NCBI GenBank assembly: GCA_033002965.1
Contig: JAURVB010013284.1
Location: 147,295-211,294, forward strand
Length of the DNA: 64,000 bases
Direction of reading: 5' to 3'
Origin: Piper betle
Lineage: Eukaryota > Streptophyta > Magnoliopsida > Piperales > Piperaceae
Positions 3,249-44,325 of the stretch are shown here, piece after piece. The notes beneath the pieces are model-generated. The model had not been told where the DNA came from. It searched no databases and saw nothing but the letters and a program-made list of their open reading frames with translations. The stretch's first letter is position 1. The number at the start of each line of letters is the position of its first letter. The translations under genes were made by a program, and so were the position numbers.

Positions 3249-3400
3249 ATCTTTGCGCTTGGGGCAATGACGCAGCTAGTGAGGTTATAACCGAGGCGCG
3301 TCTATTGCTGGTTGAAAACTATTTCCAAACCCCTCTTTGGCCTACCCTGTAGGCCACTGAGAATTTCTGGAAGGGCTCCCTTCATTGGGTAAAGCCCTAC
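3249..3400 (+). ncRNA. U4: U4 spliceosomal snRNA
   Basis: The sequence starts ATCTTTGCGCTTGGGGCAA, the conserved 5' end of plant U4, and continues with the U6-pairing and 5' stem-loop region (GAGGTTATAACCGAGGCGCG, then TTGCTGGTTGAAAACTA). A GGCCTACCCTGTAGGCC stem-loop, an Sm-like site AATTTCTGG and a 3' stem built from GGGCT and AGCCC follow. The length of about 152 nt fits plant U4. The USE lies upstream, and downstream CAATTCTTAGTCGAA fits the plant snRNA 3' box CA(N3-10)AGTNNAA. U4 pairs with U6 in the tri-snRNP and keeps U6 inactive until spliceosome activation. The weak TATA leaves some doubt about expression, but the RNA itself looks intact. Confidence 0.85.
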
Positions 3401-4053: not shown

Positions 4054-7000
4054 TGTAACACCCCAAATCCGGTTCACGCTCGTGAACTGAACCGGGATGT
4101 TACTGGCCCCGGTTAGGTCCGCTAACCCGAACCTACTCATGCGGATCCAATCTCGGCGTCTTAAGATGAAGATACAACTCTCAAGCATGGATGAATGCAA
4201 AAACCCTAACATGGTACTACATGAATGATATGCAATCAGAGTACACACCAAAACAATCCCGATAAAATTTAATAAAAATTTTGAAATATGACAGACAGAA
4301 TTTCCCCTAAAAATACAATTAGGGGCCACCCTGTCAAATATACATATAAAAATATATATAACCAAGTATCAAACAATTTCATTCACACAGAATCTAATCT
4401 ACTATACACTCATTCTGAAGCTTGGGTTTCAACCCTCAACGCTTCCACTGCGCACTCGATTCATGTTTCACCTCTTGTCATTATATCTTAGTTTTTCATC
4501 ATGTCATAACATTATCTCATTGCATTTAATCATATCCTATCATATCTTAGCATTTCACATCATTCACAATATAAAAGCATCATAAATAAAATATAAACAC
4601 TCAATCAACTGACATGTGTGCAAGCGACCACAATGCTCCTCCGTCCAAGCTGGCTCCTCCAACTCGTGCTTATCACCTACATATATATAAGAAAAACGTC
4701 AGTAACAAGCGTTACTGGTCCGGAAAATAAAATAACTATAACAAGCTGGCTATGAGAGCAAACTCTCATATGAAAGAAAGCATCATACTCCACGTGAACA
4801 CTCTGAAGGGCACTACTGAGGAGCCACTGGGCTGCAGACCCGGTAGCATCCCGAACTTACTGCTCTGCTGCTGGTACTGTGCTACTCTCAGCACTTCTTT
4901 TTCAGTACTTCTCGTGAAACTTTATCCTAAGCCCTCTCCTTACCTCCATATCTCTCCTGGCCTTGAGCACGAAGGCCGAGTACTCTCAGGCAGTCGCCTT
5001 TAGTACCCTTTGAACCACAAGTCCGGACATGCGCTGTACTAAACAGTACCCGTAAACCTCCACGTTCTCCGGGTGTGAGGAACTCAAACGCGGAGTTGTC
5101 AGGATCCCTCGGGAATGGAACAGTCCGCTGGCACTAATCCAGAGCCCGCTTTGACTGTCACGGCATCCTCTGCATGGTACGTGCAGTCGGTTTCTCCATC
5201 TCTCGTCTCACTGAAAACTCGATAAAACTATATATATAGGCCTGGGAAGGGATTCATATAATAGGCCCGAAGGCAACTTGTGGTGGATCTTGTTTTCGAA
5301 ATCATCCTCGAGGGATCTCATCCTCGAGGGGTTATTAATCCGGAAATATTCGATTAAATGGCCCGAGTTAAGTGGGATCCAATAAAACGCCACTTAACCC
5401 GCCCTGCAATAATAAAATAAACATACAATGGAAGAGCGTAAAACAAGACGAGTCCTAAACGGACCTGGTAGAAGCTCCAAGCGTGTCATCGCGCCTAGGC
5501 GGCGAGCTCCTATTCCGTACCTACACATCAAAACTAAATACTAACGCCCGCTAACTAAATGATGCATCAAACTCAACACAATTAAACACAGAATCATCAT
5601 CAAAATAACCATCAAATAATTATAAGAATAAATAATCCTAACTCAACTACTCATACCATATCTTATTCTGTTCTTCTAAGTTGCATCGTACTAGATTAAC
5701 ATGTTCATACACAATTCATCTCATTAGATCACTTCATTCACTAATAATCTCATCATGTAACTTATCATTTCATCCCTAATTAGTCATTAATCACATCATA
5801 CACATGTTTACTTCATTCATAATCTTAACATTCATCATAATAATTAATCAACCCTAGCATGCTATGCTAACAATTATCATCAATTTTAAATAATCAAATC
5901 GGAGGTAATTATACCTCACGTCGTCGGCAATCGGCGACGGCTAGGGTTCCGTCGCGCATCTCGGAGCTCGAATTCGGCGCTCCTCGGCGTCCGATGTTCG
6001 ATCGAGTCCAACTGGGTGAGCTCCGCGGAAGATCCGGTGAATTCCAGCGAATTCCAGAAATTCCAATTTTCCGGTGGTTTTCCGACAGGTACTGGCGGTT
6101 TTCCGGCGGCTTCCGGTGGTTTTCCGACGACAATCGCCGGCGGCGTCTACTGGTCGGAAAGGGGTCGTGTTGGGTACCCTCGGAACCGGCTCGGCGAGCC
6201 CGACTCATCTATGACCTCAGTGTGGCCAATGGAGGCGGCGGCTCGCCGGAAAACGGCAAAACAGAGGCCGGCCGTGGTGGTTGCTAGATCCGGCCGGCCA
6301 CGGCGGCAACGGCCTCCGCTCCGGTCAGGAAGCGTCACTGGGTGGTCGACGGTGCTGAGGCGACCACCTGATCGTGGTGGCGATGCTCGCCGGCGGCGGA
6401 ATCGGCGACGCGACCGCAACGCGGCCGCGGCGTCGCGGCGTGGTTTCCTCGCGTCGCGGCGGTCCGATGGGGGCCGGACCTGGTCGGGGCGGCAGGGCGA
6501 CGCCGTGGCCGGGCTGGGCGGCGTCGATCGGCGGCCAGGCGGCGCCGGCCGTGGCGGCGGTGGCGCGCGAACAGGGGCGGCGCGGCGAGGGTTTGGGCGT
6601 GGGGGAGAAAAGTCGGGGTGAAAAATTAGTTGGGTGGCAAACTCGTAAATAATACTTGACTCGTCTCCGTCTCGAGTCAAGTATCATAACTAACTCGTAT
6701 TAAATCCTAAAAAAATTCATAAAAATCGGGAAAAATCCCGTAAAATCAAACAACACCAAAAAAAATTATAATGGTATGCTCTAGAACTATCAACCCACCC
6801 AAACTGCCCGAACGCGTCCTAACGCGGTAAACAGCCTAATACTAATTCTACGATCCACTATATATAAAAATAAAAAAAATGACTGGCATACTCTCATATA
6901 TCTGATAACTCATTCTGTTCTGCTGTGTTCATGACGTTATCATCATATACTTGGGTACGCATGACCCTCATAGCTCATACACGCGACTGGCATTGGCTCG

Positions 7001-7096
7001 GTACACGTGTCCTGAAACTGACTCAACTCGAAAAAAATAACGGTCGACCCGACCGGTTCTAAATATAAAACCCTAACTCGAATCGTGGGTTTTACA
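4054..7096 (-). mobile_element. Solo LTR of a Ty3/gypsy-type (probably Tekay/Del-like) retrotransposon
   Basis: The 3,043-bp unit runs from TGTAACACCCC to GGGTTTTACA, the TG...CA ends of an LTR. It is flanked by a perfect 5-bp target-site duplication, TTATA at 4049-4053 and 7097-7101. No internal retroviral-like genes adjoin it, so it is a solo LTR left by LTR-LTR recombination. It aligns along its length with the LTR at 22096-24779 and, in part, with the LTRs at 18145-20820 and 28780-31593. By comparison with the primer-binding sites of those copies, the transcription direction is minus. The GC-rich block at about 5930-6640 is open in several frames, but this is composition rather than a gene. 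Lineage assignment rests on the GGGGTGTTACA end and LTR length only. Confidence 0.85.
6652..6684. promoter_or_regulatory. Perfect 12-bp hairpin at the edge of the GC-rich LTR block
   Basis: ATACTTGACTCG is followed by nine bases and then CGAGTCAAGTAT, a perfect inverted repeat. On the minus (transcribed) strand it sits just before the GC-rich block, so it may mark the U3/R area of the LTR. Related inverted repeats recur in other elements of this window. A function is not shown. Confidence 0.5.
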
Positions 7097-17150: not shown

Positions 17151-18144
17151 CCCGGGCAGGTTTTTATTTTAGTGTACATAAAAAATACAACACTTAGCCA
17201 TTTAAAATAATTAAATTCATCATTTACCCCTAAATTTTAGCATCATTTCCTGATAAAAAATATTAGTTATTTTTTTTCAAAATTAGCGCTATTAGGCAAA
17301 TTAATACCATTAAGTGATAACACAATAAACTTGCAATCGCTTAATTTATGATATAGAATTGTTGCATCAAAATAAAATTAATTGTTATTAATTTCATTAA
17401 AATTAATTAATATATACAATAAATGAATGTATTAAAATAAATTATATGATAATTAAAAATATATTACTATTTTATTTAATTTTCTATCATGGCCTTTTTT
17501 ATAACCCGAAAGATGAAATATTATTTATTATTTTTTTACATCATGGTCTTTTTATAACCCGTAATATAGATGAATGTTATAAAATATAGACTATAGTGTT
17601 TTTTTTCAATTTTGGGTTTACAATTCTAAGCATTTTATTTTTGGAAACATTTACCATTGAACATGTCTTAGATATTTTGTAAAAAAATTGAAGCATGGTT
17701 GCAACTTGAAACAACCTTTTATTATTGAGATAATTTATATAAATAGTTTGATATACTATTTTTGTTAATTTTAATCTCTATAGTTGGATATTTTCTCCTA
17801 AATGAGTTACTTTCGATTTTATGATCGAGTTAATTTCGAGCTCCTGAACGAGTTGTTTTTGATCTCCCAAACGAGCTATGTTTGAGCTCCCAAACGAGTT
17901 AGTTTCGAGCTCCTCAGAATTAAACAGTTTAAGTATATTCGATCTCAAACAAAATAAAAAAATATTCGAGTCAATCTAGAGCATATATATATATAACTCG
18001 TTCGATCTCGAGTCGAGCTCGAACGAACTTTGAGCTAGTCGAGTTAGAGCACAAGCTGAGCTCAACTTGCTTACTCGCTTAGCAGCCTAAAAGTACCGAT
18101 CAAAATTTAATTACAAAAAATAAAACTTTCATTTCCACCCTATC

Positions 18145-20820
18145 TGTAGAACTCGTGACTCGAGTCAGAGTTTTACGTTACCGAACCAGTCGATTCAACC
18201 GTTGGTTTGAGTCGAGTCAGTTTCATGAACCGCGTGCTGAGTCGAGGCCAGCCGTAAGTTATTAGCGATGAGAGTCACGTAAGTATACATTATTTTTCTT
18301 TTTATATGTTCGATCGTAGAAATAGTTTTAAGCCGAATAACGCATTATGATGTGTTGTGTTTGTTTTATTTTATGGGATTTTTCCATTTTTTTCTAGATT
18401 TTTTAGGATTTATTATTAACTAGTTATTATTTTGACTTAAGTACGAATCGAGTCAATACTTATTTATGGGTTTGCCATTGAGGGTGTTTTTCTCCTTCCT
18501 GACACCGCCGCCGACGTCGCACTGCCGTCGATCAACGCCGCCCCGCCTTGCCGTGTCCTCGTCGTGCCGCCACGATGCCGGAATCGCCCCACAAGCCGCG
18601 ACGCTCCCCTTGTCAATTCGCCGCCGTCCAGGCCGCACCGCCGCGCCGTGACCCCGACGACCACCCCCTTGACCTACCCGACGTTTCCCCCTACCTAGAG
18701 CCGCCGTCGAAGCCGGTCGTTGGCCTGATCGGAACGACCAACCGACCTAACCAAACTCGACGCCGCCGATGGTGGTCATCGCCGCCGCAGCCGCCATTGC
18801 TGTCACCACCATTGGGACGAACTCGCCGAGCCGGTGCTACCCTTACCTTGATCGCCCTGCTGGAACAGTCGCCAGAAAACCGCCGGGACAGTTGCCGATA
18901 AATTGCCAAAAACTGGATTTGCCGAAATTCGTCGGAAATCACCTAATCTTCCGCCAAATCCCTCTGATTGAACCCTTTCGAACTTTGAACGCCATAGGGT
19001 GCTGAATTCGAGTCACGAATCCCGCTAGGTATAATTTATTTTAACTTAATTATTTAAAAGTATTGATTATTAGAATTGCATGCTAGGATTGGTGAATTGC
19101 ATGTTATAATTATATATATAAATGTAGAATTGATTAAGGATAAAATATGAAATTTGTTTGATTGAGTGGTGTTAAAAATGGAGGCTAAGAAACTAATTAG
19201 GGTAACTAGGTAATGATCATGATCTAATGCAAACTAGCCTAAGTAGACTTGCTAGAATTGATATAGGTTGATGTGTGTTGATTGATGCGTGATGGATGTA
19301 TGTGTGATATAGGATGTATGACTGCATCATGAGCGGGCGTTAGTATTTAGTTTCGATGTGTAGGTACGGAGTAGGAGCTCGCCACCTAGGCACGAGGACA
19401 CGCTTGGAGCTTCTACCAGGTCCGTTTAGGACTCGTTCTCTGTTTTATGCTATTCCATTGTGTATTTGATTTATCATGTGCACAGGACGAGTCAAGTGGC
19501 ATTTTATCGAATCCCACTTAACTCGGGCCATTTAGCCAACAGTTTTTTTCGGACTAATAACCCTCGAGGATGAGATCCCTCGAGTCAGTTTTCGAAATTA
19601 AGATCCACTACAGGTTGCCTTCGGGCCTATTGTATAAATCCCAACCCAGTCCTATATATGTATAGTTTTCGCGTTTTCAGTGAGAGATGGAATGAGGGTT
19701 ACTGACAGCCACGCCTCTCAGATAGGGCATGTGCCCGGAAGAGTGGGCTCTAGAGCTGGGGAGAACCCACTTCGTTCCCGAAGGATCCGGACAACTCCAC
19801 CTTTGAGTTCCTCAAACCCGGAGAAGTGTGGAGGTTTACGGGTACTGCAATGCAGCGCATGTCTAGACTTGTGGTTCAAAGGGTACTAAAGGCAGACTGC
19901 CTGAGAGTGTTTGGCCTTCGTGCTCAAGGCCTGGAGTAATATAGAAGATGTAGAGGGCGGAAAGGAATGAGATTTGATGCGAGAAGCGATAGAGAAATGA
20001 CCTAAGGTATGAGAATGAGAAAGAAAGGGAGACGCTGTCGACCCGAGGGTAACGCCCGATGGCGAGCTCCCATATATGCCCTGATGAGAGTTCTTGAGGA
20101 AGTATATAGTTTTGATTCAACAAGAGAGTTTGCTCTCCTGTGCCAGATTGATATTAATTATTTCCCGGGCCGGTAACACTCATTACTGACGGTTTTTCTA
20201 TATATATGTAGGTGAGAAATGTGAGGGATGAAAGTTGTCGGGACTGCGGATGAGCAACACGGAACTGCGCACACATGTACTTGCCGCGTGTAATGTATAA
20301 TGATGGTGTGTTAATGCTATGTGAATGATAATTTTGATGTGTTTGTTTGGATGAATTGCTTGTTATGAAATGAACGGATAAATGTGAATGAGTAGGGAGC
20401 CTTGGAGTTCAGCCTCGGCTCAAATGAAAACAAATGAGATAATGATGGGATGTCGTGGTAGATTGTTATGTTTTATCGTATTTTGATAAAATATTTATAT
20501 ACCCTTGTTGTGGATAGGTTGGCCCCTATTGCACTTTTAGAGGAGATTCTTGTCCGTTTTTTCGTAAAAAATTAATGAATGTTTATTTAAATTTCTTACT
20601 TGTTGCATGGTTTTGTTTTGCTTGCACGTTATGGCATGCATGTAGGACCGCGTTAGAACCCAATTGTTCCCATTCATGCATTTCATGGTTGCATCCCCAT
20701 CTTAAGATGTCTGAGGGCAGATCCGGGTCGGCTTAACCGAACCCAGTAGATTAGCAAACGGTTCGGTCGCCGGTGACATTTTCGGGTCGGTTCACGGGTG
20801 AGCCGAAACGGGGTGTTACA
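18145..20820 (+). repeat. Left LTR of the palindromic element
   Basis: It runs from TGTAGAACTCGTGACTCGAG to CGGGGTGTTACA and is 2,676 bp long. ATAA and a primer-binding site follow it directly, so it is a 5' LTR for the plus strand. It aligns with the reverse complement of 28780-31593. Confidence 0.8.
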
Positions 20821-20824
20821 ATAA

Positions 20825-20840
20825 TGGTATTAGAGCTAAC
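20825..20840 (+). other. Primer-binding site, initiator tRNA-Met type (left arm)
   Basis: TGGTATTAGAGC differs at one position from TGGTATCAGAGC, the complement of the 3' end of plant initiator tRNA-Met. It lies four bases after the LTR end. Confidence 0.8.
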
Positions 20841-23800
20841 CCTTGGTTGATTAAGATGGTAGGTGCGTTACAGGTTACATGTGTGCCGAAGCTGCTCCGA
20901 GCTGTACCGATAGGTATTTTTCTGTCTTAATATTTTCGGGTTACAGATTTTCTTACGAATCGGTGGTGTGACAGGGTGAACAGATCAGATCAGGAATTTG
21001 TAGAGGGATGTTGACACATACCCGCCGGACGCAGATCAGGACCCCATCGCCTCCAATAGCCAGACAAGACAGTCTTAGCCCTGTTCACAATGATGCCGCC
21101 TCCAGTCAACCTAGGACTGCCATGCCACCAGTAGAGGTCAGTGTGACAGTTTCAGCTAGCTGATGTGGTGAGAGCCATTATCAAGATAGTCGCCGTGGAC
21201 CGAGATAGTCGCCGAGACCGAGACAGTGGTCACGACAGTTACCGCACCAGAAGTACCCGACAGGAGAGAGACACAATGATCTCTAGGTTGACGGAAACTC
21301 AGACACAAATGTAGCAAAGTCAGGAAGAATTTAGGAGACAAATGTAGCAAGATCAGGAGGAATTCAGGAGAGAGCTCAAGCAGATAGCTCTTTCTATATC
21401 TAGAACTGAGAAGAGACCAGCAATGGGTGAAGAGGCACGGGGAGAGCCAGCAGTTTCCATAGACCTTCTACCGCTGCCTCCTCCTCCAGAGGGCTACTAC
21501 GATGATAGCTCCTCTATTTGCCCCACTTCAGGCAAGGATGAGACCAAACATCAGTGGAACTGTAGTAACAGGTAGCGGGCCGACTATAGGCAGAAGTGGA
21601 GCTGCAAGATTTGACAGTGTACCAGCAAGTACGGGACCACAACTTACTCGGTATGAGCAAGGAGAAGGATCGAATAGATCAGTGGATACGAGGAAATTGG
21701 AACTGTGGCAATACGAGAGGTTCGTGAAGAATGGTGGAAAACCTTTCTTTGGAAAGTTGGACGCATAAGAGGCATTCTTGTGGATATCGTCAGCTACAGG
21801 AGTGTTTGACACTATGGCATGCCCCGCGGAGCACCGAGTGCGCATCATCACAGGAGTATTCCAAGACAAGGCAAGGATATGGTGGAGTTCGGTCCACAAT
21901 TCTGTATTTGCCCATCATCAGCCCCAAGACATCACATGGGAGGAATTTAGGGCGGAATTCGATGGAAATTATTTCCCGCCAAACGTCAAGAAGAGGAAGG
22001 AATGGGAATTCCAGATGCTGAGGTAGGGACCCATGATGGTGGTACAATATGAGATTAGGTTTAGAGCTCTGGAGAGATTTGCACCAGACTTGGTGTGTAA
22101 TACCCCAAATCCGGTCCATGCTCATGAACCGAACCGGCATGTTACAGGCCCCAGTTAGGTCGGCTAACCCGAACCCAACTCGCGCGGATCTAATCTTGGC
22201 GTCTTAAGAGGAAGATATTACTCGTCATGCATGGATGAATGCACAAAATCCTAACATGATACTACATGGATGACATGCAAACTAAATTACGCACCATCAC
22301 ATCAATATAATAATATCATAACAAAATATAACCACTCAATCGACTGACATGTGTGCAAGCGACGACAGTGCTCCTCCGTCCAAGCTGGCTCCTCCAACTC
22401 GTGATTATTACCTACATATAATATAAAAACACGTCAGTAACAAGTATTACTGGTCCGGAAAATAAAATAACTATAACAAGCTGGCTATGAGAGCAAACTC
22501 TCATATGAAAGAAAACATCATATACTCCACGTGAACACTCTGAAGGGCACTACTGAGGAGCCACTGGGCTGCAGACCCGGTAGCATCCCGAACTTACTGA
22601 TCTGCTGCTGCTGATGCCACTCTCGGCATTTTCTTACTTCATTTTCTGGTCTCAAATCCTAAGCCCTCTCCTTACCTCCATATTTCTCCTGGCCTTGAGC
22701 ACGAAGGCCGAGTACTCTCAGGCAATCGCCTTTAGTACCCTTTGAACCACAAGTCCGGACATGCGCTGTACGTAAACAGTACCCATAAACCTCCACGTTC
22801 TCCGGGTGTGAGGAACTCAAACGCGGAGTTGTCAGGATCCCTCGGGAATGGAACAGTCTGCTGGCACTAATCCAGAGCCCGCTTTGACTGTCACGGCATC
22901 CGCTCATGGTACGTGCAGTCGATTTCTCCATCTCTCGTCTCACTAAAAACGCGAAAACTACATATATATAGGGCTGGGTAAGGATTTATATAATAGGCCC
23001 GAAGGCAACTTGTGGTGGATCTTGTTTTCGAAATCATCCTCGAGGGATCTCATCCTCGAGGGGTTATTAATCCGGAAAACTGTTCGGTTAAATGGCCCGA
23101 GTTAAGTGGGATCCAATAAAATGCCACTTAACCCGTCCTACAAATAATAAAATAAACATACAATAGAAAAGAGCGTAAAACAGAGACGAGTCCTAAACGG
23201 ACCTGGTAGAAGCTCCAAGCATGTCATCGCGCCTAGGCGGCGAGCTCCTACTCCGTACCTACACATCAAAACTAAATACTAACGCCCGCTAACTAAATGA
23301 TGCATCAAACGCAATGAACATCACACACAATTCAATCATCAACATCCAGCAACAGTTAAATAATCATAAATGTAAATAATTCTAACTCATCCTATTCATA
23401 CCAATTTTATTGTGTTTTTCAAGGTTACGTCCTGATCACTTATCATGCTGAGACTCGATCTACCTCATTAGATCACTTAACCTTCATTCTCAATTAATTG
23501 CATCATGCAATCATCATTTCATTCATAGTCATACATTTATCCTAACAACTAACCAATTCTAGCATGTTATGCTAACAATCATTATCAATTTTAAATAATC
23601 AAATCGGAGGTAATTATACCTCATGTCGTCGGCAATCAGCGACGGCTAGGGTTCCGTCGCGCATCTTGGAGCTCGAATTCGGCGCTCATCGGCATCCGAC
23701 GTTCGATCGGGATCGACTAGATGAACTCCTCGGAAGATCCGGCGAATTCCAGCGAATCCGATTTTCTGGCAGTTTTCCGGCAGGTTTCAGTAGTTTTCCG

Positions 23801-24330
23801 GTAGCTTCCGACGGTTTTTCGGCGACAGTCGTCGGCGGCGTCTACTGGCCGGAAAGTGGTCATATTGGGTACCATTGGAACCGGCTCGGCGAGCCCAACA
23901 CATCCACGACGTCGACGTGGTTGGCCGAGGCGGTGGCTCGCCGAAAAATGGCTAAAACAGAGGCGGCGGTGGTGGGTAGCTAGATCCGGCCGGCCTGGGC
24001 GACGATGGCCTCCACTCCAGTCGGGGAAGGTCGCCGGGTGGTCGAGGATGTTGAGGCTAGAGCTGGATCGCAGTGGCGGAATCGACGACACGAGCGCAAC
24101 GCGGGCGCGGCGCTTGGCGCGGCGATCCGGCGTCACGGCGGCCAAATGATGGCCGGGACTGGTCGGGGAGGCACGGCGACGCCGTGGCGGGGCTAGTCGG
24201 CGACGATCGGCAGCCAGGTTGCGTCAGCGACGGCGACGGTGGCACGCATGGGGGAGGCGTCGGGAAGGGTTTTGGGAAGAAGGCAGTCGGGAGGGGAGAA
24301 AAATAACTGGGTGGCAATTTCGTAAATAAG

Positions 24331-24359
24331 ACTTGACTCGTCTCCGGCTCGAGTCAAGT
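24331..24359. promoter_or_regulatory. Conserved LTR hairpin ACTTGACTCG...CGAGTCAAGT
   Basis: Ten-base perfect arms with a nine-base loop at the same place in the LTR as the hairpin at 6652-6684. Confidence 0.45.
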
Positions 24360-24532
24360 ATAATAACTAAGTCGTATTAAATCCTAAAAAATTTCATAAA
24401 AATCGGAAAAATCCCGTAAAATCAAACAAACACCAAAACATCATAATGATATGCTCTAGAACTATCAACCCAGCCAAACTGCTCGTAACGTGTCCTAATG
24501 CGGTAAACGACCTAAAACTAATTCTATGATCC

Positions 24533-24561
24533 ACTATATATATATATATATATATATATAA
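24533..24561. repeat. (TA)n microsatellite
   Basis: Run of alternating T and A inside the nested solo LTR. It is absent at this length from the copy at 4054-7096. Confidence 0.85.
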
Positions 24562-25489
24562 AAACAACTGGCATACTCTTATATATTCTGATAACTCATT
24601 TTGTTCTGTTGTGTTCATGACGTTATCATCATATACTTGGGTACGCATGACCCTCATAGCTCATACACGTGATCGGCGTCGGCTCGGTACATGTGTCCTG
24701 AAACTGACTCAACTCGAAAATAACAGTCGAACCGACCGGTTCTGAATATAAAACCCTGACTCGAATCATGGGTTTTACATGGTGTCCACCGAAGAAAGAA
24801 GGATAGAGCGTTTTTACGAAGGCCTACATCACGAGATCAGGATGGCCTATTTGGATAGGAAGTTCGCTACTTTCGGTGATGTTATGAGAGCTACAGGCGA
24901 AGCAGAACGAGTTATAGCTGGGATGTTGACCAACATTCGAGGCTGTATCAAGAATAGCAGAGACGTCAGTTACATGCACTAGTTGCCATAAGAGCTATGG
25001 ATGGCCAAGATCAGGGCAACATAGCACCTTTATGTCTGATTTGCCAACGTCATCATAGAGGCGAGTGCAGAGTGGGCACAAATGTATGCTACAGATGTGG
25101 TCAAACAGGACATAGAGTTGTAGAGTGCAGAACAAGCACAGGCGCATGCTACAGATGCGGTAAACCAGGGCATAGAACCGCAACTTGTCCAATTGGCCAG
25201 ACCCAATAGGTGACGCTCCAAACACCTCCGCAGAGACTTGCACTCCCAGCTCCCCAGCAACAACCATAGCAGAGAGGTCAGCTGGGTCAAGGTCAAGGCT
25301 AGAGAGGCGAAGACCGATAGCCACCGAGGCAACAGCAGAGAGGACTTGTAGCTATCATGATAGGACAAGAACAGCAGCCCCTGGATCAGAGATGAATGCA
25401 AACAACACCACCAGTAGGACCTTCCGTCTCGGTACCACCATGGGCAGCTAGGATAGACACAGCCACAATTGCTGAAACATTAGAGGATA

Positions 25490-25615
25490 CGACAAACGTG
25501 ACAAGTACGCAAGCGTCTCACCTCAGATTTCACATTAAGGAGGTTTCACTCTGGTAGCTATGTACTAAATGTGAAATCTGAGGTGAGACACTTGCGTACC
25601 TGTCACGTTTGTCAT
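25490..25615. repeat. Centre of the palindrome: inverted arms and 31-bp spacer
   Basis: CTCACCTCAGATTTCACATT ends at 25536 and its inverse, AATGTGAAATCTGAGGTGAG, starts at 25568. The arms pair without a gap for more than 20 bases next to the spacer at 25537-25567 and continue, with scattered mismatches, for kilobases. Confidence 0.9.
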
Positions 25616-28600
25616 ATCCTCCAGTGCTTCAGCAATCGTGGCTGTGTCCATCCCAGCTGCCCATGGTGGTATCGAGACGGAAGGTCCTGCTGGTGGCATT
25701 GTTTGCATTCCTCTCTGATCCAGGGCCTGCTGTTCTTGTCCTATCACGATAGCTACAAGTCCTCTCTGCTGCTACCTCAGTGGATGTCGATCTCCGCCTC
25801 TGACCTTGACCTTGACCTTGACCTTGCTGACCTGTCTGCTATGGTTGTTGCTGGAGAGCTGGAGTGCAAGTCTCTGCTAAGGTGATGGGAGCGTCACTTA
25901 TTGGGTCTGGCCAGTTGGACAAGTTGTGGCTCTATGCCCTGGTTGACCACATCTGTAGCATGCGCCTATGCTTGTTCTGCACTCTGCGGCTCTATGTCCT
26001 GTCTGACCGCATCTGTAGCATACATTTGTGCCCACTCTGCACTCACCTCTATGTTGACGTTGGCAAATCAGACATAAAGGTGCTCTGTTGCCCTGATCTT
26101 GGGCATCCATAGCTCTTATGGCAAGTGGTGCATCTAACTGACGTCTCTGCTATTCTCCCGGCTTTGGCTGATATGGCCTCGAATGTTGCTACCTCTGGTC
26201 AACATCCCGGCAAGGTCTAGCAGCTATAACTTGTTCTACCTGGCCTGCAGCTCTCATAACATCACCGAAAGTTGCGAACTTCCTATCCAAATAGGCCATG
26301 CTCATCTCATGATGGAGGCCTTCGTAAAAACGCTCTATCCTTCTTTCTTCGGTGGACACCAAGTCTGGTGCAAATCTCTCCAGAGCTCTACACCTGGTCT
26401 TGTAATGTACCACCATCATGGGTCCCTGCCTCAGCGTCTGGAATTCCCGTTCCTTTATCTTCCTAACGTTTAGCGGGAAATACTTTCTATCAAATTCTGC
26501 CCTAAATTCCTCCCATGTGATGTCCTGGGGCTGACAATGGGCAAATACAGAATTCTAGATCGAACTCCACCATATCCTGGCTTCGTCTTGGAATGCTCCT
26601 ATGATGATGTGCACTCGATGCTCCGCGGGGCATGCCATAGTGTCAAACACTCCTGTAGCTGACGATATCCACAAGAATGCCTCTTATGCGTCCAACTTTC
26701 CAAAGAAAGGTTTTCCACCATTCTTCACGAACCTTTCGTAATGCCACAGTTCCAATTTCCTCGTATCCACTGATATGTTTGATCCTTGTCCTTGCTCATA
26801 CAGAGGAAGTTGTGGTCTTGTACCTGCTGGTACACCATCAAATCCTGCAGCTCCACTTCTGCCTATAGTCGGCCCGCTACCTGCTACTGCGGTTCCACTA
26901 ATGTCTGGTCTCATCCTCACCTGAAGTGGGGCAAATAGAGGAGCTGTCGTCGGAGTAGCCCTCTATTGTAGTGGTGGAGGAGGAGGCGGCAGTAGAGGGT
27001 CTGTGAAAACTGCTGGCTCTCCCCGTGCCTCTTCACCCACTGCTGGTCTCTTCTCAGCTCTGGCTATAGAAAGAGCTATCTGCCTGAGCTCTCTCCTGAA
27101 TTCCTTCTGATCTTGTTGCATTTGTCTCTTGAATTCTTCCTGACTTTGCTGCATTTGTGTTTGAGCTTTCGCCAACCTGGTGATCACTGCGTCTCTCTCC
27201 TGTCGACTACTTCTGGTGCGGTAACTGTCGCGACCATTGTCTTGGTCCCAGCAACTGTCTCAATGATGGCCCTCACCACGTCGGCTAGCTGAAACTGGCA
27301 CACTGACCCCTACTGGTGGCATGGCAGTCCTAGGTTGACTGGAGGCAGCATCACTGTTAAGTGTTTAAAATATATAATATTTCCCCATATTTTTAATATG
27401 ATTTTGTACTTCTCGGGTATAAACATTATTAATTTAGTGATATTTTTCATTATATTCTAGTTAATTAATATTTTATTAGATATGCTTAATTTTGGTGTTT
27501 CAATGCAGAAAAAGATGAATAAATTAAGCTTTGGATTTGATTGGTCATGACACTTGGCCCTACCCAATGGCTACAATTCATGGTGTTCAATGGAGTCGAA
27601 CAGTTGGAAACTTGAAGGGACATTATAATTAATTAGACTACGTCGATTTGTGAACACCCTCTTCGAATTCTTGTATCTCCACTTCTATATAAAGGGGTGG
27701 TCATTTGTTGTTATCATATCTCATCTCTTGGCTTCAGAGTGTAGTGAAAGTAGTAGTTTTAGTTTTTGTAATTCCTTTTTCTTTCATAATAAAAATTAGT
27801 TTCTTCTTTATAATGTTTTCTATTTTTATTATGGAGTAGTCTTTTATTTCGTTCTAGAGAAGAATGAAACTTAACATGATTTAATTGAATTTATTTCAAG
27901 CTCTTACTCTTTTATTCAATTGGATTGTTTGAATTATCATGTTCTTAATGCTAAGAGTAGATTGATCACCTATTTCTTAGATCATGAGGTTTAATTAGAT
28001 TTTGGGAGAAATTAATTAGATTAGTCATTGATAATTCATCATACGACGAGTCTTTTGACTTGTTTGTCGTTGTGGTCGGAAGATACACAACACCGTATGC
28101 GATTGTAAGGCAATTCTTAATGCATTATTTTGTTGATTAATCAATTATCACCGGGAGGTAGAAATTGAGGCAAAATAATAGAAGCATGAAGGAGCGGGAG
28201 CCACCATGTCATATAATTATCCTAGATCGACAATCTGAGGGAATAAAAGATGAGAGTAAGATTTGATGAAGATTAAATTCATGTTAAGGGAAATTCGACT
28301 CTAGAACTAGTTTTATAATTTTAACTCCGCTTTTTATTTAAGTTATTATTTAGATTTCGTTAAGTCAATTATTTCTGTTTTGTTCTTAATTTTATTTTCT
28401 TTAATTAATTTAAGGAAATTCATCTCTTTGTGGGAACGATACTCTAATTTATCATCATACTACTTGTTTCGACCGTGTATACTTGCTTGTTATTGAAAAT
28501 AGTCTAACAATCACTGTGAACAGGGCTAGGACTGTCCTGTCTGGCTACTGGAGGTGATGGGGTCCTGATTTGCAGCCGGTGGGTCTGTGTCACCATCCCG

Positions 28601-28750
28601 CTACAAATTCCTGATCTTATCTGTTCACCCTATCACACCACCGATTTGTGAGAAAATCTGTAACCCAAAAATATTAAGACAGAAAAATACCTATCGGTAC
28701 AGCTCGGAGAAACTTCGGCACACATGTAACCTGTAACGCACCTACCATCT
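25571..28750 (-). pseudogene. Retrotransposon gag, minus-strand copy, interrupted
   Basis: Read on the minus strand, 27187-26963 gives an N-terminal Gln/Lys-rich coiled-coil-like segment ending in a proline run. 26920-26684 gives the capsid segment ending FFGKLDA and then a TAA at the same codon as the left arm. 26419-26189 gives EERRIERFYEGLHHE, and 26110-25898 gives two CX2CX4HX4C zinc knuckles. The N-terminal side is split by the LTR at 27355-28509. It matches the left arm at roughly nine bases in ten by eye. Several stops make it non-functional. Confidence 0.85.
27355..28509. mobile_element. Solo LTR of a different retrotransposon family, nested in the right arm
   Basis: The 1,155-bp unit runs from TGTTAAGTG to GTCTAACA, with TGTTA/TAACA as short inverted ends. 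It is flanked by a perfect 5-bp duplication ATCAC (27350-27354 and 28510-28514). The left arm at the matching site (near 21087) reads straight through, which proves the insertion. Near the right end GTGGGAACGATACTC resembles a motif common near LTR ends of some plant gypsy elements. The unit shares no obvious sequence with the large LTR family of this window. No coding sequence lies inside. Confidence 0.85.
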
Positions 28751-28761
28751 TAATCAACCAA

Positions 28762-28775
28762 GGGCTCTGATACTA
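28762..28775 (-). other. Primer-binding site, initiator tRNA-Met type (right arm)
   Basis: On the minus strand TAGTATCAGAGCCC lies four bases after the LTR end. It differs at one position from TGGTATCAGAGC, and at a different position from the left-arm site. Confidence 0.8.
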
Positions 28776-28779
28776 TTAT

Positions 28780-31593
28780 TGTAACACCCCATTTTGGCTC
28801 ACCCGTAAACCGACCCGGAAATGTCACCGGCAACCGAACCGTTCGCTAATCTACTGGGTTCGGTTAAGCTGACCCGGATCTACCCTCGGCGTCTTAAGAT
28901 GGGGATGCAACCATGAAATGCATGAATGGGAACAATTAGGTTCTAACACGATCCTACATGCATGCCATGACGTGCAAGCAAAACAAAACCATGCAACAAG
29001 CAAGAAATTTAAATAAAAATTCAATAATTTTTACGAAAAAATGGACAAAATCTCCCCTAAAAGTGCAATAGGGGCCAACTTGTCCACAACAAGGGTATAT
29101 AAATATTTTATCAAAATACGATAAAACATAACAATCTACCGTGACATCCCATCATTATCTCATTTGTTTTCATTTGAGCCGAGGCTGAACTCCAAGGCTC
29201 CCTACTCATTCACATTTATCCGTTCATTTCATAACAAGCAATTCATCCAAACAAACACATCAAAATTATCATTCACGTAGCATTAACACACCATCATTAT
29301 ACATTACACACAGCAGGTACATGTGTGCACGGTTCTGTGCTGCTCCTCCGTAGTCCCGATAGCTTTCATTCCTCGCATTTCTCACCTACATATATATAGA
29401 AAAACCGTCAGTAATGAGTGTTACCGGCCCGGGAAATAACTAATATTAATCTGGCACAAGAGAGCAAACTCTCTTGTTGAATTAAAACCATATACTTCCT
29501 CAAGAACTCTCATCACGGCATATAATATAGGAGCCATGCCATCGGGCCATCGCCCTCGGGTCGACAACATCCACCTTTCTTTCTCATTCTCATACCTTGG
29601 CCATTTCTCTATCGCTTCTCGCATCAAATCTCATTCCTTTCCGCCCTCTACATCTTCCATATTACTCCTGGCCTTGAGCACGAAGGCCGAACACTCTCAG
29701 GCAGTCGCCTTTAGTACCCTTTGAACCACAAGTCTAGACATGTGCTGCATTGCAGTACCCGTAAACCTCCACACTTCTCTGGGTTTGAGGAACTCAAAGG
29801 TGGAGTTGTCTGGATCCTTCGGGAACGAAGTGGGTTCTCCCCAGCTCCAGAGCCCGCTCTTCCGAGCACACGCCCTATCTGAAGGCGTGGCCATCAATAA
29901 CCCTCATTCCATCTCTCACTGAAAATGCGAAAACTATACATATTATAGGCCTGAGTTGGGATTTATACAATAGGCCCGAAGGCAACTTGTGGTGGATCTT
30001 AATTTCGAAAACTGACTCGAGGGATCTCATCCTCGAGGGTTATTAATCCAAAAAAAATTGTTGGCTAAATGGCCCGAGTTAAGTAGGATTTGATAAAACG
30101 CCACTTGACTCGTCCTGCACATGATAAATCAAATACACAATAGAATAGCATAAAACAAAGAACGAGTCCTAAACGGACCTGGTAGAAGCTCCAAGCGTTT
30201 CCTCGTGCCTAAGCGGCGAGCTCTTACTCCATACCTATACATCGAAATTAAATACTAACATCCGCTCATGATGCAGTCATACATCCTATATCACACATAC
30301 ATTCATCATGCATCAGTCAACACACATCAACCTATATCAATTATCATGATCATTACATAATTACCCTAATTAGTTTCTTAGCCTACATGTTTAACACCAC
30401 TCAATCAAACAAATTTCATATTTTATCCTTAATTAATTCTACATTTATAAATATAATTATAACATGCAATTCACCAATCCTAGCATGCAATTCTAATAAT
30501 CAATACTTTTAAATAATTAAATCAAAATAAATTATACCTCGCGGGATTCGTGGCTCGAACTCTGGCACCCTATGGCGTTCAAAGTTTGATAGGGTTCAAC
30601 CGGAGGGATTCGACAGAAAATTAGGTGATTTTCGACGAATTTCGGTGAATCCAGTTTTTCGGCGACTTCCGGCAGTTTTCCGGTGACTGTTCCAGCTGTT
30701 TTTCGGCGACTATTCTGGTGGGGCAATCGGGGTAAGGGTTAGCACCAGCTCGGCGAGCTCGTCCCAATGGTGGTGACAGCAAGGACGGCTGCGGCGGCGA
30801 TGACCGTTGCCGGCGGCGTCAAGTTCGGTCGAGTCGGTCGGTCGTTCCAATCAGGCCCACGGCCGGCTTCGACGGCGGCGCTAGGTAAGGGGGAAACGTC
30901 GGGTAGGTCAAGGGGGTGGTCGTTGGGGTGACGGCGGTGGCAGTGCGGCCTGGACGGCGGCAAATCGACAAGGGGAGCATCGCGGCTTGTAGGGCGATTC
31001 TAGCGTCGTGGCGGTGAGACGGTGGCCGCGGTTGGGCGGGGCGGCGTTGATCGGCTGCAGTGCGGCGGTGGCGGCGACACACATAGTGGGCGTCGGTAGG
31101 GTTTTGGGAAGGGAAAGGTGTCAGGATGGAGAAAAACACCCTCAATGTTAAACTCGTAAATAAGTATTGACTCGATTCATACTTAAGTCAAAATAATAAC
31201 TAGTTCATAATAAATCTTAAAAAATCTAGAAAAATATGGAAAAATCTCATAAAATAAAACAAACACAACAACATCCAAATGACATGCTCTATAACTAATA
31301 AACCACCCGAATATGATCCAACGCATCCTAATGCGTTATTCGGCTTAAAACTATTTCTACGATCTAACATATAAAAAGAAAAATACTATATACTTTCATA
31401 TATTCTGATAACTCATATCTCACCATCTTCGACGTTATCATTATATATTCAGGTACACCTAACTCTCATCGCTCATAACTCACGAGCTGGCCTCGACTGA
31501 GCACTTGGTTCATGAAACTTACTCGATTCAAACCAACAGTTGAACCGACTAGTTCGGGAATATAAAACTCTAACTCGAGTTACGGGTTTTACA
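28780..31593 (-). repeat. Right LTR of the palindromic element
   Basis: In plus coordinates it runs from TGTAACACCCC to CGGGTTTTACA and is 2,814 bp long. It is the 5' LTR for minus-strand transcription because the PBS lies on its left. It is the inverse of the LTR at 18145-20820 with scattered substitutions and small indels. Confidence 0.8.
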
Positions 31594-31819
31594 TTACCAA
31601 CCCTCCCTACCGGTTTTAATTAAAGCATAAAGGATTTTTTTTCCCTCGCAATCACGTTTCAATCTTTTTTATGTTTAAGTTGATTCTAGCCCACTAATAA
31701 TTTTTTAATTAAAAATTAAAATAATTATTATACCACCACATAAAAGAAATAGAAGAAATAGAAGAAATCATTATTATTTTTTCTACATGTCTTGTTTTAA
31801 CATATGATTATTGGAGAAG

Positions 31820-32949: not shown

Positions 32950-35900
32950 TTAGCAGAAACAATTATAGGCCAAGTGATTCTTTTGGGTAATATAAGGCGA
33001 CACGTATTCGGCGGCAGATGCAGAAGGGCTGGATATTGGAGCTGGAACGAGTATATTGGTTTTGCCAGAAGCTATTCTTTTTCCAGCCACATTTGCATAG
33101 AACATGCCAGAAATGGCTGGCACAAAGACATCACTTTCAGAGCAAACGTGGAAATCAAGGATTTTCTCTAGTTGTGCACTTCCATCATTGAGGAACTTAT
33201 CTTTCTTGTCAGCCGGGATCAAACCTTCCTGTAATCAGATAATAAGCAACATTTGGATTTAGAAATGTTGATGTACAGAACAAATGATGCAAGATATTAA
33301 AGCAAAGCAATAAAAGATGGCTATAATGACAATACAACCGGAACTGCGGTAAATATCACTTGACAAGGACTTGTGTTGTACGTATTTTTCTTTTTACCAC
33401 TTAAAATTGAATGAGAAAGTATACTCTACTGCTTGTCATTGTAAAAAATGAGTTGCAAAGCTTCCTACAATGCAATTCTTAGTCTTCTAGTATTACTTCT
33501 GCGAATGAATACAATATTTAATTACCAAAAAGACTAAAAATTCAAAAAGAGGACTTCTCACCTTGGTATAAGTTTTCGGGAACATCTCTTTTAAAGGACC
33601 AAGGCTATCATGCCAGCGTGGTTGAGTTACGTAAACTGTAGTTTCCCTATCAAAGCCAACTTTCCTAAGAAACAATGCAATCTCTTCCGCACTGTAGCAG
33701 CTTTTTGCTTTACCTTGTCCACTCTGTCTACATCCTTTCTTTTGCAGTATATCAACCCTCAAGTCCACCGCAACAAACTGGCCATCTGACTTGCGACTCA
33801 AGGTTCTCAGCCTCTGAGCCATCATGTCAACCACATCATGTATCTCTTTCTGTAATTCAAGAGTGCCAAACATAGCCAAGCAAGCAATTGAGTCAATTTC
33901 CTTCTTCTGGGTTGACCTAATTTTCATGTTCACAGATGGAAAGGTTGACACCACCCGTAAGTGACCTTTCATTCTGAAGACTGGCTCAATGTTTTTTGAA
34001 ATAAAATCTTCTGTTACTCTACTGGGAACTTTCAAAACCCCTGGCTTACTCGCTTCACTTGGTTGATTTTGGGCTACGTTGATGACTCCATCGAGAGCAT
34101 TCACAAATTTTTCAGCATTATACACATCTACAAAATTCCTGCAAATATCAAATTTAATTCCTTAAATGATGTCAACCTCTCAAAACCAGTTTACTAAATA
34201 AGAAGTCTATAGTTCAGTCTAACAGAAAGCGCAATGTCCAGTAAGACATGACACTAAAAAAATAAATAAAATTCGTGTACACTGAATTGATATAGAAATA
34301 ACATTAGATTGAATAAATTAATTGGTAGATCATCAGATAATCTTATGTTAATCAGATGCAGAATCCATCTCCAAACTAACCTCTTGTCTCCAAGTTCAGC
34401 TCCCCTGATGTCAGGAAGTACAAGTGTTGCTCCAAGATATTTTGCAACCATCACTGCATTGGCAATCTGAAAATGGGAAAATAGAAGTGAAAAGCATAAG
34501 GATGTGTCATATATACATCAAATAGCCTTAGGAGAGACCAATATACAAATTATATTTCTTTATTGTTAAAACGTCTATTGCTTAGGAATATAAAAATTGG
34601 TACCTTGCACTTTAAGATTATGATCTTTAAAATGAATAACGCATTCAACATATTCATAAAAAAAGAAATTTGTTCATGATCACAAAACAACCATAACATA
34701 ATCCAATTCTAAATTCATTCAAGCAGTGCAACCAAGTTTTTTTATATATATATTTTGTCTTTGTTTGAAAAAGAAAGCGAGAAAATGCATAAAGAAAAAC
34801 ATAAACTGTTTGTTTGCAAAAAGACATCACTATAGTCGGTCCTTAATCATAAACTTTACCTGCATCAGATGGTATTCAGGACCATTTGACAATGAGAATG
34901 TGATGAATCCTCTAGTCTTTCCAGTTTCTTCTGCAATGTTAATTTCAGAATTTAACTCAAAGTTCCATTGATTGCTATAAATCAATAAATACACACTTCA
35001 CACAAATTAATGTCAGCAAGAACTAAATACTTGATGTCTGTACTGTCCAGCAAGGTTTAAGTGTCTGCCTATCATACTTCCAAGGGCCTTTAGCATCCTT
35101 TAAAACTGTTGCACCTTTATCCGCCTGAACCTTTGCTACGTCAAACTGGATTTTAGGCTCTTGAGGCTGAGTCACCTAATGGGCAGAACGGTGAACTAAA
35201 GAGTTAATCACAATAGATAATCAATGATAAATGATTTTGACAATTACCACGTGATTGAGGTATTACATCATCAAATTCATAGGTATCTAATGAGTGATTA
35301 TGTGGAAGAAAGGTTAAACCTATGACATTAATAAGATTGCTAAGCAAAACAGATGAGAAGCCGCTATATATGGCTCTGGCATAGAAAGGCGTCTATACAG
35401 ATTGAAGAACATAATGATCTCGATCTAAAACTTATGGAATCTACAACTCACGGAATTAGTTTGGTTGTATCTGGAAAGAACACCACCATAAGGGAAAAGG
35501 AGATGCCCCTATAACTCATACAGTTTCTCAAGGTCAATACAACCACAGGACAACAATTTTGCAACATACACCACACTAGAATTAAAAAAATAAAAAGCAA
35601 GAACAGGCACCCCCATTTTTAATTTTGCATTGCACCAACAAACTATCAAGATTGAATTGCAACCTAGCAGCTCCATGTTTCATTTCCATTACCAGATATT
35701 GACTTAAACAGATGACTATAGCACGGCCATGTCGAATGATAATGATTCCTTGAATTGAAGATTAACACATAAGCCAGACTCCCAAAAAATCTCATTTACA
35801 TCCAAAAAAATTCACCAACCACCACGGAATCAAAAACCCAGATCTAACGCCTGCCACACCCATGCAGAGAGAGGCCTCACCTCAACCGGATCATCGAAAT

Positions 35901-41325: not shown

Positions 41326-41734
41326 GGCCCGTCATTCTTTTCGCACCAAAATTATTTCAAAAATAATCAAAATTGGATTCCACCAAAATTCTTAAATCGT
41401 CAAGAGGAGCATATATATAGTTCATTAACCAAGGGTTAAGAGTTTTATATTAAGCTGATGATACGAAAGTTTAAACTCATTATAGATCGTATTATAGGAG
41501 TTCAAAAAACGTCCCTAATAGGAATGATATAAATATAATATAATGTGGCCAAGATTGCTTTAGAGGTCAAGCACTAATGGGAGAAGTAAATACCAAACGT
41601 TGGAAGGTAATAGTTCCATATACATATATCTTCTTAAATATTTATTAATTACACTAACCATTCACATGCCCATCTTTATGTCCAAAGATATCTCCAATAT
41701 TTATTAGTTATAGATGATCTACTGATAAAATAGT
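35986..41734. other. Long AT-rich intergenic region, no gene seen
   Basis: It begins with the 5' flank of the MSR gene and continues as AT-rich sequence over more than 5 kb. Short frames at 36491-36859 and 37326-37529 have no recognisable domain, and the second starts at TTG. A GC-richer patch at 38000-38140 (CCCTTGCCGGACTATCCCC) could be a relic of a gene or element. A (TA)n lies at 41281-41321. Probable old repeat remnants cannot be classified by eye. Confidence 0.45.
41281..41321. repeat. (TA)n microsatellite
   Basis: About twenty TA units, ending before AAAAGAGG. Confidence 0.9.
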
Positions 41735-42318
41735 TACTTAACATGTTGTGCAATTTGGAAATCAAATCCACCATAGATTAAAGCGATAAAATGAGTAGAA
41801 TCCCTGTTGTCTGAGCTCCAAGCATAATATCTCATCTATGGTGAGTTCAGATTGCGAAACTTATATTGACTACTAATTAAAATACTTATATCTCTATATG
41901 TGCATCATCATGATGTGTGCTCACATCATCAATGACATCACAATAAAAATTAGTACTAAATAGACCTACAACTACACCTATTACAAAAATTGAGACCATA
42001 ATAATAATAAATAAAAAATAAAAATAAAAATAAATACACTTATAGATAATTAGATAAATAATAAATTCATGAAAATAGATAATACTTTATTCATAAAAAT
42101 AATAATATCATTATACTAGATAAGTAAATGGCTAAACACGAGTAAATAACAACTTATACTCGTGTTACTAAATATATAAATGAATGAATAAACAATAATT
42201 TGATAAATAGATAAATAAAAAATAGTTAATATTAATTAATCATGCATACTAATAATAGCATAGCTAGCCAATACGAAAATAAATAATTACACAAATAAAT
42301 AATAATATATACACAACA

Positions 42319-42319
42319 A

Positions 42320-42370
<51 letters not shown>

Positions 42371-42393
42371 AGAGAGAGAGTGTGTGTGTGTGT
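42319..42393. repeat. Compound (TA)n(GA)n(GT)n microsatellite
   Basis: TA units run into GAGAGA and then GTGTGT at the left border of the foldback element. The right border has the inverse order in short form (TATATATA then CACACACA near 43848-43864). Confidence 0.85.
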
Positions 42394-43862
42394 TCTATTA
42401 GAGGGTGCACTGCTTGTTTTGTAGCGCACCACATAGCCACAGGAGAAAAATCTAGTTCCACCCCCCTCCCCTGGCTTCTCGCCGCTCCCCACCCGGCATG
42501 CCCCTGCCCCCGCCCCCGACGCGCCCATGAAACATGGCAGGGAGGGGAGGCGAACAGGGTAAGGGAAAGAGAAAGAGGGAAAGGAAGGGAAAGAGGGGTG
42601 GCAGCGTTGGTCGACGGTGATGCAAGCGACGGCGGCGAGGTCGTTGGCGGTCGTGGTAGAGCGGCAAAAACAAAGGTGGGGGGCGATCGTCGATAGGGGA
42701 GAAAATGAATTGATGGCAATTTTGTAATAAAAAATTCACTCGCTCCTAACTCTGGTCGATATTATGAAATAAATCCACAAAAATATAAAAAATTTAACTT
42801 GCTCCTAACTCGAGTCAATATTATGAAATAAATCCAAAAAATATAAAAAACTTGACTGGTTGGGAGGTGGCAGCAGATTGGCGAGCGGCATCGCTTGTTG
42901 GCAAAACAAGGGAGAAGGTCGGGAAAAAGAAATGTCTTTAGGTGCGGGGGTAGTTCCGTAATAAAAACTTGACTCGCTCTAAACAGCCTATTTTTTATTT
43001 TATTTTATTGTCAGAATTTTGTTATAAAAATAAAATAAAATATCATCATATTTTGAGAACGTCCAATTTTTTATTTTATTTTTATTTTTTTACTTATAGT
43101 GGATCACAAAATTAATTTTATGTTGTTTACCTCATTAGGACGCGTTATTTATTAATTTTGGGTGGGTTATTAAGTTTAGAGCACATTATTTGATTAAGAA
43201 CTCAATTATTTTATTTTATGATATTTTACTGTATTTTTTTATATTTTTGGGATATATTTCGTAATATTGACTCGAGTCGGGAGCGGGTCAAGTTTTTATT
43301 ATGAAACTACCCCCGCGGCTAAAGGCATTTCTTTTCCCCGACCTTCTCCCCTGTTTTGCCAGCCAACAATGCTGCTGGCCAATGCTATCGCCGCCTTTCA
43401 ACCAGTCAAGTTTTTTATATTTTTTGGATTTATTTCATAACATTAACTCAAGTCAAGAGTGAGTGAAATTTTTTATATTTTTTTAGATTTATTTCATAAT
43501 ATTGACCGAAGTTAGGAGCGAGTAAAGTTTTTATTACGAAATTGTCATTGAGTCATTTTTCCCCCTACCGACGATCACCCCCTCTTCTATTTTTACCACT
43601 CCACCCTGAACGTCGGCGACCTTGCCACTGCCATCACCTTCATCACCGCTATCGCTGCCCCTCTTTCCCTTCCTTTCTCCTCTTTCGCTTTCCCTTACCC
43701 TCTTTGCCGCCCCTCCTTGATCTGTTTCGTGGAGCACCGAGGGGGATGGGGGGAGGGAATTGACAATTGCTAGATCAAAATCCAGTGGCAATAAATGTGG
43801 TGCGCTACCTGCGCTGCAAAAACACGCAACACACCCTAATAGAACTATATATATACACACAC
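42386..43862. mobile_element. Foldback-type element with ~600-bp inverted arms
   Basis: The left arm (42386-42985) begins near GTGTGTTCTATTAGAGGGTG and the right arm (about 43275-43862) is its imperfect inverse, ending CACCCTAATAGAAC. Both arms hold GTAGCGCACCACAT, a GC-rich purine block, and repeats of TATTATGAAATAAATCC. The spacer between arms is AT-rich. Microsatellites (TA, GA, GT) border both ends, so the exact termini and any target duplication are hidden. There is no transposase. Confidence 0.65.
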
Positions 43863-44325
43863 ACAATTTAGTAAATATGATTGTAACTAATATTAATAAA
43901 TAAATATCTTGTTAAAATCAATAAATAATCACACAAACATTCATCATACCAGACAAGCATATCAATAAAAAGAAATAAATAATAATGAATAAATAAATAG
44001 ATAAATAATTAAATAAATAAAAAATTAATTAAAAATATTTATAATGTCAAAATATACTAAATAGTGTAAATATACATATAAACTAATATAAGGGTTTTCG
44101 AATTAACAATATTGATCAAAAAATAGCAAAAAATGAACGAAAACATTAAAGCGAGTCAACTGGGCTAGCACAGACCGAGTCAAATGAGCTGACCAACTCG
44201 TTCTAGGTTAACAGAAAAAATGGGCTAAGTTGGCTGGGCAGACATAGCCATAGACTAGCAGACTAGACTCGGGCACGGCCTAGCGAACAAGGTCAGAGGA
44301 GCAAACACGAATGCGGGCAAACCAT

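Follow-up and report, generated by a model that had tools for sequence, protein, structure and literature searches.

Self-primed or snap-back DNA palindromes occur in unintegrated retroviral DNA, and among retrotransposons with long terminal repeats (LTRs) the TR-GAG elements are non-autonomous elements of LTR-gag-LTR structure. Two further related systems are known from plants: Mu killer, which derives from the maize transposon MuDR, and the template-switching complexes of the Triticeae. Here we describe a locus in a 64,000-nucleotide stretch of the Piper betle genome (assembly GCA_033002965.1, contig JAURVB010013284.1, positions 147,295 to 211,294 of the forward strand), hereafter the window, to which all coordinates refer. 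Positions 18145-31593 (13.4 kb) are occupied by an LTR retrotransposon derivative of the form LTR(+)-PBS(+)-gag(+)-31 bp-gag(-)-PBS(-)-LTR(-) (PBS, primer-binding site), i.e., a tail-to-tail palindrome (Table 1). We consider it probable that this structure was integrated whole, as a palindromic complementary DNA (cDNA) formed by a turn-round at the gag end.

The retroviral snap-back palindromes share with this locus the proposed turn-round of a growing strand, but the P. betle palindrome is chromosomal and old. TR-GAG elements resemble it in that gag is the sole coding region found; their LTRs, however, are direct whereas those of the palindrome are inverted. The closest parallel is Mu killer (PMC3440606), which is bounded on either side by copies of a single end of its element and has two partial coding copies facing each other in an inverted duplication. 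The palindrome follows the same plan, one end of its element forming both borders and its two gag arms standing in the place of the partial coding copies. Mu killer has been proposed as a source of hairpin RNA, and the same is predicted for the palindrome, where read-through RNA from either inward-pointing LTR would fold along LTR, leader, and gag and could thereby act as a Mu-killer-like source of silencing RNA. In contrast, Mu killer is a derivative of a class II DNA transposon and silences MuDR, while the palindrome is an LTR retrotransposon known from sequence alone. According to the same account of Mu killer, silencing plants contain short antisense transcripts, the long hairpin being named as a possible contributor, and the analogy does not prove a silencing function for the palindrome. 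The Triticeae complexes (Sabot and Schulman 2007, PMC1950507) are fused two-unit elements proposed to have been made during reverse transcription and integrated once, as we propose here, but they have an internal third LTR, two complete core sequences, and intact target site duplications (TSDs), whereas the palindrome is arranged tail-to-tail, with two outer LTRs, a centre that holds gag only and no LTR, and no clear TSD. No palindromic double-5′ LTR retrotransposon was found, by title or abstract beginning, among the papers listed in searches of open-licence PMC.

Self-comparison of the window gave strong inverted matches within 18145-31593. The two arms (18145-25536 versus 31593-25568) align, with indels, from tip to centre at 91.5% identity (395 differences in 4,635 columns; Kimura two-parameter distance, 0.092), and BLAST to the opposite arm gave E=0 for segments 18281-21094, 21084-22096, and 24777-25539 and 1e-39 for 18145-18275. 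The alignment stops at the TG of each outer tip. Homology past the LTR tips was not detected: the outside 400 bp on one side score 28 against the outside 400 bp on the other, and 300 shuffles score 23 on average and 32 at most. Because the mirror symmetry halts at both LTR tips, a later chromosomal inverted duplication is disfavoured. One such route is duplication of a single LTR-gag fragment via replication template switching, similar to origin-dependent inverted-repeat amplification (ODIRA). A short inverted repeat does border the 31-bp spacer, resembling the ODIRA junctions described in PMC11790251, but flanking DNA would be expected to have been copied too, and we set this scarcely credible origin aside.

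All 13.4 kb were scanned with Pfam in six frames, stops being read as X. At E≤0.01, Retrotrans_gag and zf-CCHC were detected in one frame per orientation, and models for protease, reverse transcriptase, RNase H, and integrase gave no match. The capsid match was to PF03732 (E=3.9e-16) and was accompanied by zf-CCHC; Ty3_capsid reached 17.9 bits, under its cut-off of 29.1. Both arm LTRs end in GTGTTACA, followed by ATAA and by a PBS that in each arm has one mismatch to TGGTATCAGAGC, a motif that we take to be the complement of the plant initiator-Met tRNA primer. Their length, TG...CA ends, and tRNA PBS just inside are Ty3/gypsy-type features, as is a gag with capsid domain and CCHC knuckles, but the LTR pair is inverted, not direct, and no pol domain was detected. 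On these features, the palindrome appears to be a derivative of a Ty3/gypsy-type LTR retrotransposon rather than a complete member. An initial annotation of this DNA had already given the order of the parts and the 31-bp spacer, both borne out by the arm alignment and Pfam. It had also claimed an LTR start at both tips with flanks that are not inverted, and the absence of pol: both tips are present, the flank score lies at shuffle level, no pol domain was found in any of the six frames, and the arm alignment that it had put forward to locate the limits of homology indeed pairs the arms from tip to centre and ends at the LTR tips. For two later insertions in the arms, its start positions (22096 and 27355) were right, and the ends were corrected from 24784 and 28514 to 24779 and 28509.

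What the initial annotation had overlooked is the position of the turn-round, which lies at the gag terminus. Our protein searches scored only candidates sharing most words (7,993 and 7,995), so that relatives may be missed; among the 7,993, the sole protein at E≤1e-10 was P0001. This gag of 507 residues, from a 2,306-bp ENA contig, is 77% identical to the right gag arm (27121-25568). The C terminus of P0001 reads ...NVTGTQASHLRFHI, and SHLRFHI are the last residues before the palindrome turns in the arms. At this point, the right arm reads HI-TAG, while HI-KEVSLW-stop is read in the left arm; the 31-bp spacer accounts for the difference. By this comparison the fold sits at the P0001 end to within one codon, and the TAG of the right arm suggests that P0001 ends at a stop codon. 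Relatives of P0001 were confirmed neither in prokaryote genome contigs (0 of 17 pattern matches) nor in viral contigs (0 of 1), and a 23-mer of the spacer had no match in the viral contigs. A protein of another gag family, P0002 (34% identical, with a protease domain close behind the knuckles), is uninformative on sequence past the P0001 end. As a separate observation, the one-base TAG/AAG asymmetry at the fold (25537-25567) could be a fossil of a priming mismatch or a later mutation. Templated filler was considered for the spacer and rejected, there being no match of at least 9 bp within the element (226 of 300 shuffled spacers reach at least 9 bp); outside the element, the window has two matches of 10 bp, which appear to be fortuitous.

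The exact coincidence between the P0001 end and the turn-round residue could also be read as the mark of a small family that spreads as palindromes, with P0001 as the gag of another copy, so that its gag open reading frame (ORF) ends at the fold; in addition, a search with the last 68 residues of P0001 (440-507) returned P0001 alone, of 11 candidates. However, P0001 is explained equally well if its gag simply ends in a stop and pol is separate or absent, and we are not aware of any way in which a double-5′ element could be copied by reverse transcription. Both points weigh against such a family, which we regard as improbable.

The explanation that we favour, a palindromic cDNA, can be laid out on the standard retroviral pathway, in which the plus strand starts at U3 and after transfer runs U3-R-U5-PBS-gag. 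Such a strand would have run on for about 28 nt beyond the gag stop; its 3′ end, priming on itself or on the sister strand packaged with it, would then have been extended back as far as the U3 end. If the plus strand turned round past the gag stop in this way, a U3 end would be present on both sides, in line with the anatomy; a turn-round of the minus strand would give the 3′ half. Of the two arms, the right one, whose TAG falls at the P0001 end, would have been made first, and the spacer would represent the loop. We infer conversion of the hairpin to a linear duplex, or sister-strand priming; the linear product would carry a U3 tip at either end, usable by integrase, and a single insertion event would likely have followed. 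The arms would have been identical at the start and have decayed later under methylation, and the parent was probably a gag-defective copy already. The initial annotation had likewise argued for the integration of a pre-formed palindrome. The anatomy fits and the flanks are not inverted, but the claim is unproved and, as discussed below, the outer target duplication is poor. An extension of the same idea is that turn-round at the gag terminus recurrently makes integration-competent double-U3 palindromes in this family, P0001 being another copy and each insertion a hairpin locus that could silence the parent family, as a counterpart of Mu killer among retrotransposons; this we put forward only as an unlikely conjecture.

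The pattern of differences between the arms bears on whether they come from one molecule or two. Divergence is alike across four segments (LTR, 213 of 2,636 columns; leader, 21 of 270; middle gag, 96 of 978; distal gag, 65 of 751; chi-square 2.97, p=0.40) and consists of 313 transitions versus 82 transversions. Between the two arm LTRs the transition/transversion ratio is 4.20, compared to 1.77 for the one pair of related-family solo LTRs that served as control (Fisher p=1.4e-5). Such even, transition-rich divergence is as expected from arms that began identical, and the outer LTRs, now 91.9% identical, differ in a transition-rich pattern that fits decay from identity. Transitions between the arms affect 108 of 474 CG (22.8%), 88 of 444 CHG (19.8%), and 117 of 1,361 CHH sites (8.6%); this CG/CHG weighting fits decay under methylation but alone cannot separate a one-molecule from a two-insertion model. 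When the arm LTRs were compared with the two solo LTRs, 490 sites united the arms against the solos and 10 + 10 contradicted this grouping. A total of 130 arm changes could be polarised (74 left, 56 right), of which 79 are C-to-T or G-to-A changes.

The P0001-matching gag has 9 stops in the left arm and 8 in the right, 3 of which coincide among the 486 shared codons and are non-stop in P0001. The shared stop at residue 146 is TAA in both arms and E in P0001 and is hence not attributable to cytosine decay. Of the 486 codons, 342 are the same in all three sequences and 18 differ in all; the two arms share a state that P0001 lacks at 47, and P0001 is matched by only the left arm at 35 and by only the right arm at 44. 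Because of the even divergence, the transition excess, the LTR grouping, and the shared gag stops, we favour the arms as one original sequence. At a substitution rate of ~1.3e-8 per site per year, K=0.092 would correspond to some 3.5 million years.

The main rival, which we hold to be rather unlikely, is that two elements of the same sub-lineage were inserted separately in inverted orientation and later lost the centre, i.e., both pol regions and the inner LTRs, perhaps by cleavage of, or a polymerase jump across, the hairpin of the inverted pair. This requires two copies with the identical three stops and symmetric trimming within 31 bp at the gag end, and the arm differences are more transition-rich than those between the two solo LTRs. 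Two independent truncations falling within 31 bp of each other are expected in ~3% of cases in a 2.03-kb interior (2x31/2027), a figure that drops to about 1% on an assumed 5-kb parent interior; hairpin-guided loss could, on the other hand, leave near-symmetric ends. A survey of ~7 Mb of Triticeae sequence tabulated 20 recombinant complexes versus 2 template-switching ones (PMC1950507), which also speaks for separate insertions. In the same work, flanking TSDs separate single integrations from recombination among insertions, a missing TSD pointing to recombination.

It is the outer target duplication that weighs most visibly on this side against a single palindromic insertion. The 5-mers bordering the tips, CTATC and TTACC, match at 3/5, so that there is no intact duplication. 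A full 5/5 is retained by the other three LTR insertions of the window that were checked (TGGTG, ATCAC, and TTATA). The likelihood ratio for CTATC/TTACC is 2.6 over chance, at least 3 matches arise by chance with P=0.13, and a true duplication at this divergence would be so poor or worse with P=0.061. Both mismatches are C/T, which would allow for an original CTACC that underwent a single C-to-T change on each side. Further points run in the same direction. Identity in 200-bp windows spans 0.82 to 0.97, with the middle gag slightly more diverged (9.8%); the control pair for the transition bias comes from a more distant family and shows similar CG (76/384, 0.198) and CHG (51/252, 0.202) values, its CHH value being higher (106/689, 0.154); and the shared stops at residues 324 and 408 (Q to TAG/TAA) may have arisen independently in both arms through C-to-T decay. 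As for the fold, the P0001 end could be a stop codon or the contig end, and the gag-stop codon reads AAG in the left arm.

Missed-adapter reads are able to yield palindromes, which raises the question of an assembly or long-read fold-back artefact. The solo LTRs at 22096-24779 in the left arm and 27355-28509 in the right arm each have a perfect 5-bp target duplication, and each is missing from the opposite arm and was therefore inserted after the palindrome arms existed. A fold-back artefact is very unlikely because of these arm-specific inserts with their own target duplications and the 8.5% arm divergence, to which may be added that the flanking DNA is not mirrored, and we set it aside. From its termini, the right-arm solo LTR appears to be copia-like.

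If the palindromic cDNA explanation is true, it would show that a cDNA both ends of which are U3 can be fixed by integrase, that plant reverse transcription can turn round on itself, and that a family can produce its own inverted-repeat silencer in one insertion. To judge from its divergence and from the insertions that it later received, a palindrome of this kind can persist. A search rule for long-read plant genomes follows: inverted LTR-gag arms that are truncated internally in mirror image and bordered by a single outer TSD.

Table 1. Parts of the palindrome and its borders, in window coordinates.
Feature	Position	Strand	Details
Left outer 5-mer CTATC	18140..18144	+	Candidate degraded target duplication
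Left LTR	18145..20820	+	2,676 bp, TGTAGAAC...GTGTTACA; aligned with right LTR, tips and ends located
Left PBS, TGGTATTAGAGC	20825..20836	+	One mismatch to plant initiator-Met complement
Left gag arm	21342..25536	+	Capsid and two zinc knuckles, split by solo LTR; tblastn with P0001, Pfam
Later solo LTR in left arm	22096..24779	-	Related family; TSD TGGTG/TGGTG
Central spacer	25537..25567	.	31 bp; in right-arm reading begins TAG, at gag end
Right gag arm	25568..27121	-	Collinear with P0001 residues 1-507 in one frame, save stops and short indels
Later solo LTR in right arm	27355..28509	.	TGTTA..TAACA; TSD ATCAC/ATCAC
Right PBS, TAGTATCAGAGC	28764..28775	-	
Right LTR	28780..31593	-	2,814 bp, outer tip TGTAAAAC
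Right outer 5-mer TTACC	31594..31598	+	Candidate degraded target duplication

The window contains further LTR-derived sequence. A solo LTR of a related long-LTR family at 4054-7096 (TSD TTATA/TTATA) is 86% identical to the solo LTR in the left arm, and an LTR-like stretch at 59363-60166, in reverse orientation, is 70% identical to the left-arm LTR. A second inverted repeat at 42502-43757 (42502-42979 versus 43757-43281, 81%) partially matches the solo-LTR U3 and has no match to the left-arm LTR; it lies within a ~1.5-kb break in an LTR-like stretch, 41723-44133, that matches 60058-60941.

O-FucT, leucine-rich repeat (LRR), and Exo70 domains were recognised in 4 of the 6 window proteins scanned, the other 2 being without a match. 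Two protein O-fucosyltransferase ORFs on the minus strand at 32953-34158 (49.2 bits and 23.4 bits, the latter under the 31.5 cut-off) are likely exons of one gene, whose 3′ end would lie about 1.4 kb from the right tip of the palindrome. An Exo70 exocyst subunit gene occupies 55222-57243 on the minus strand as a single 674-codon ORF, and a U4 spliceosomal RNA gene is located at 3249-3396 (111.7 bits).

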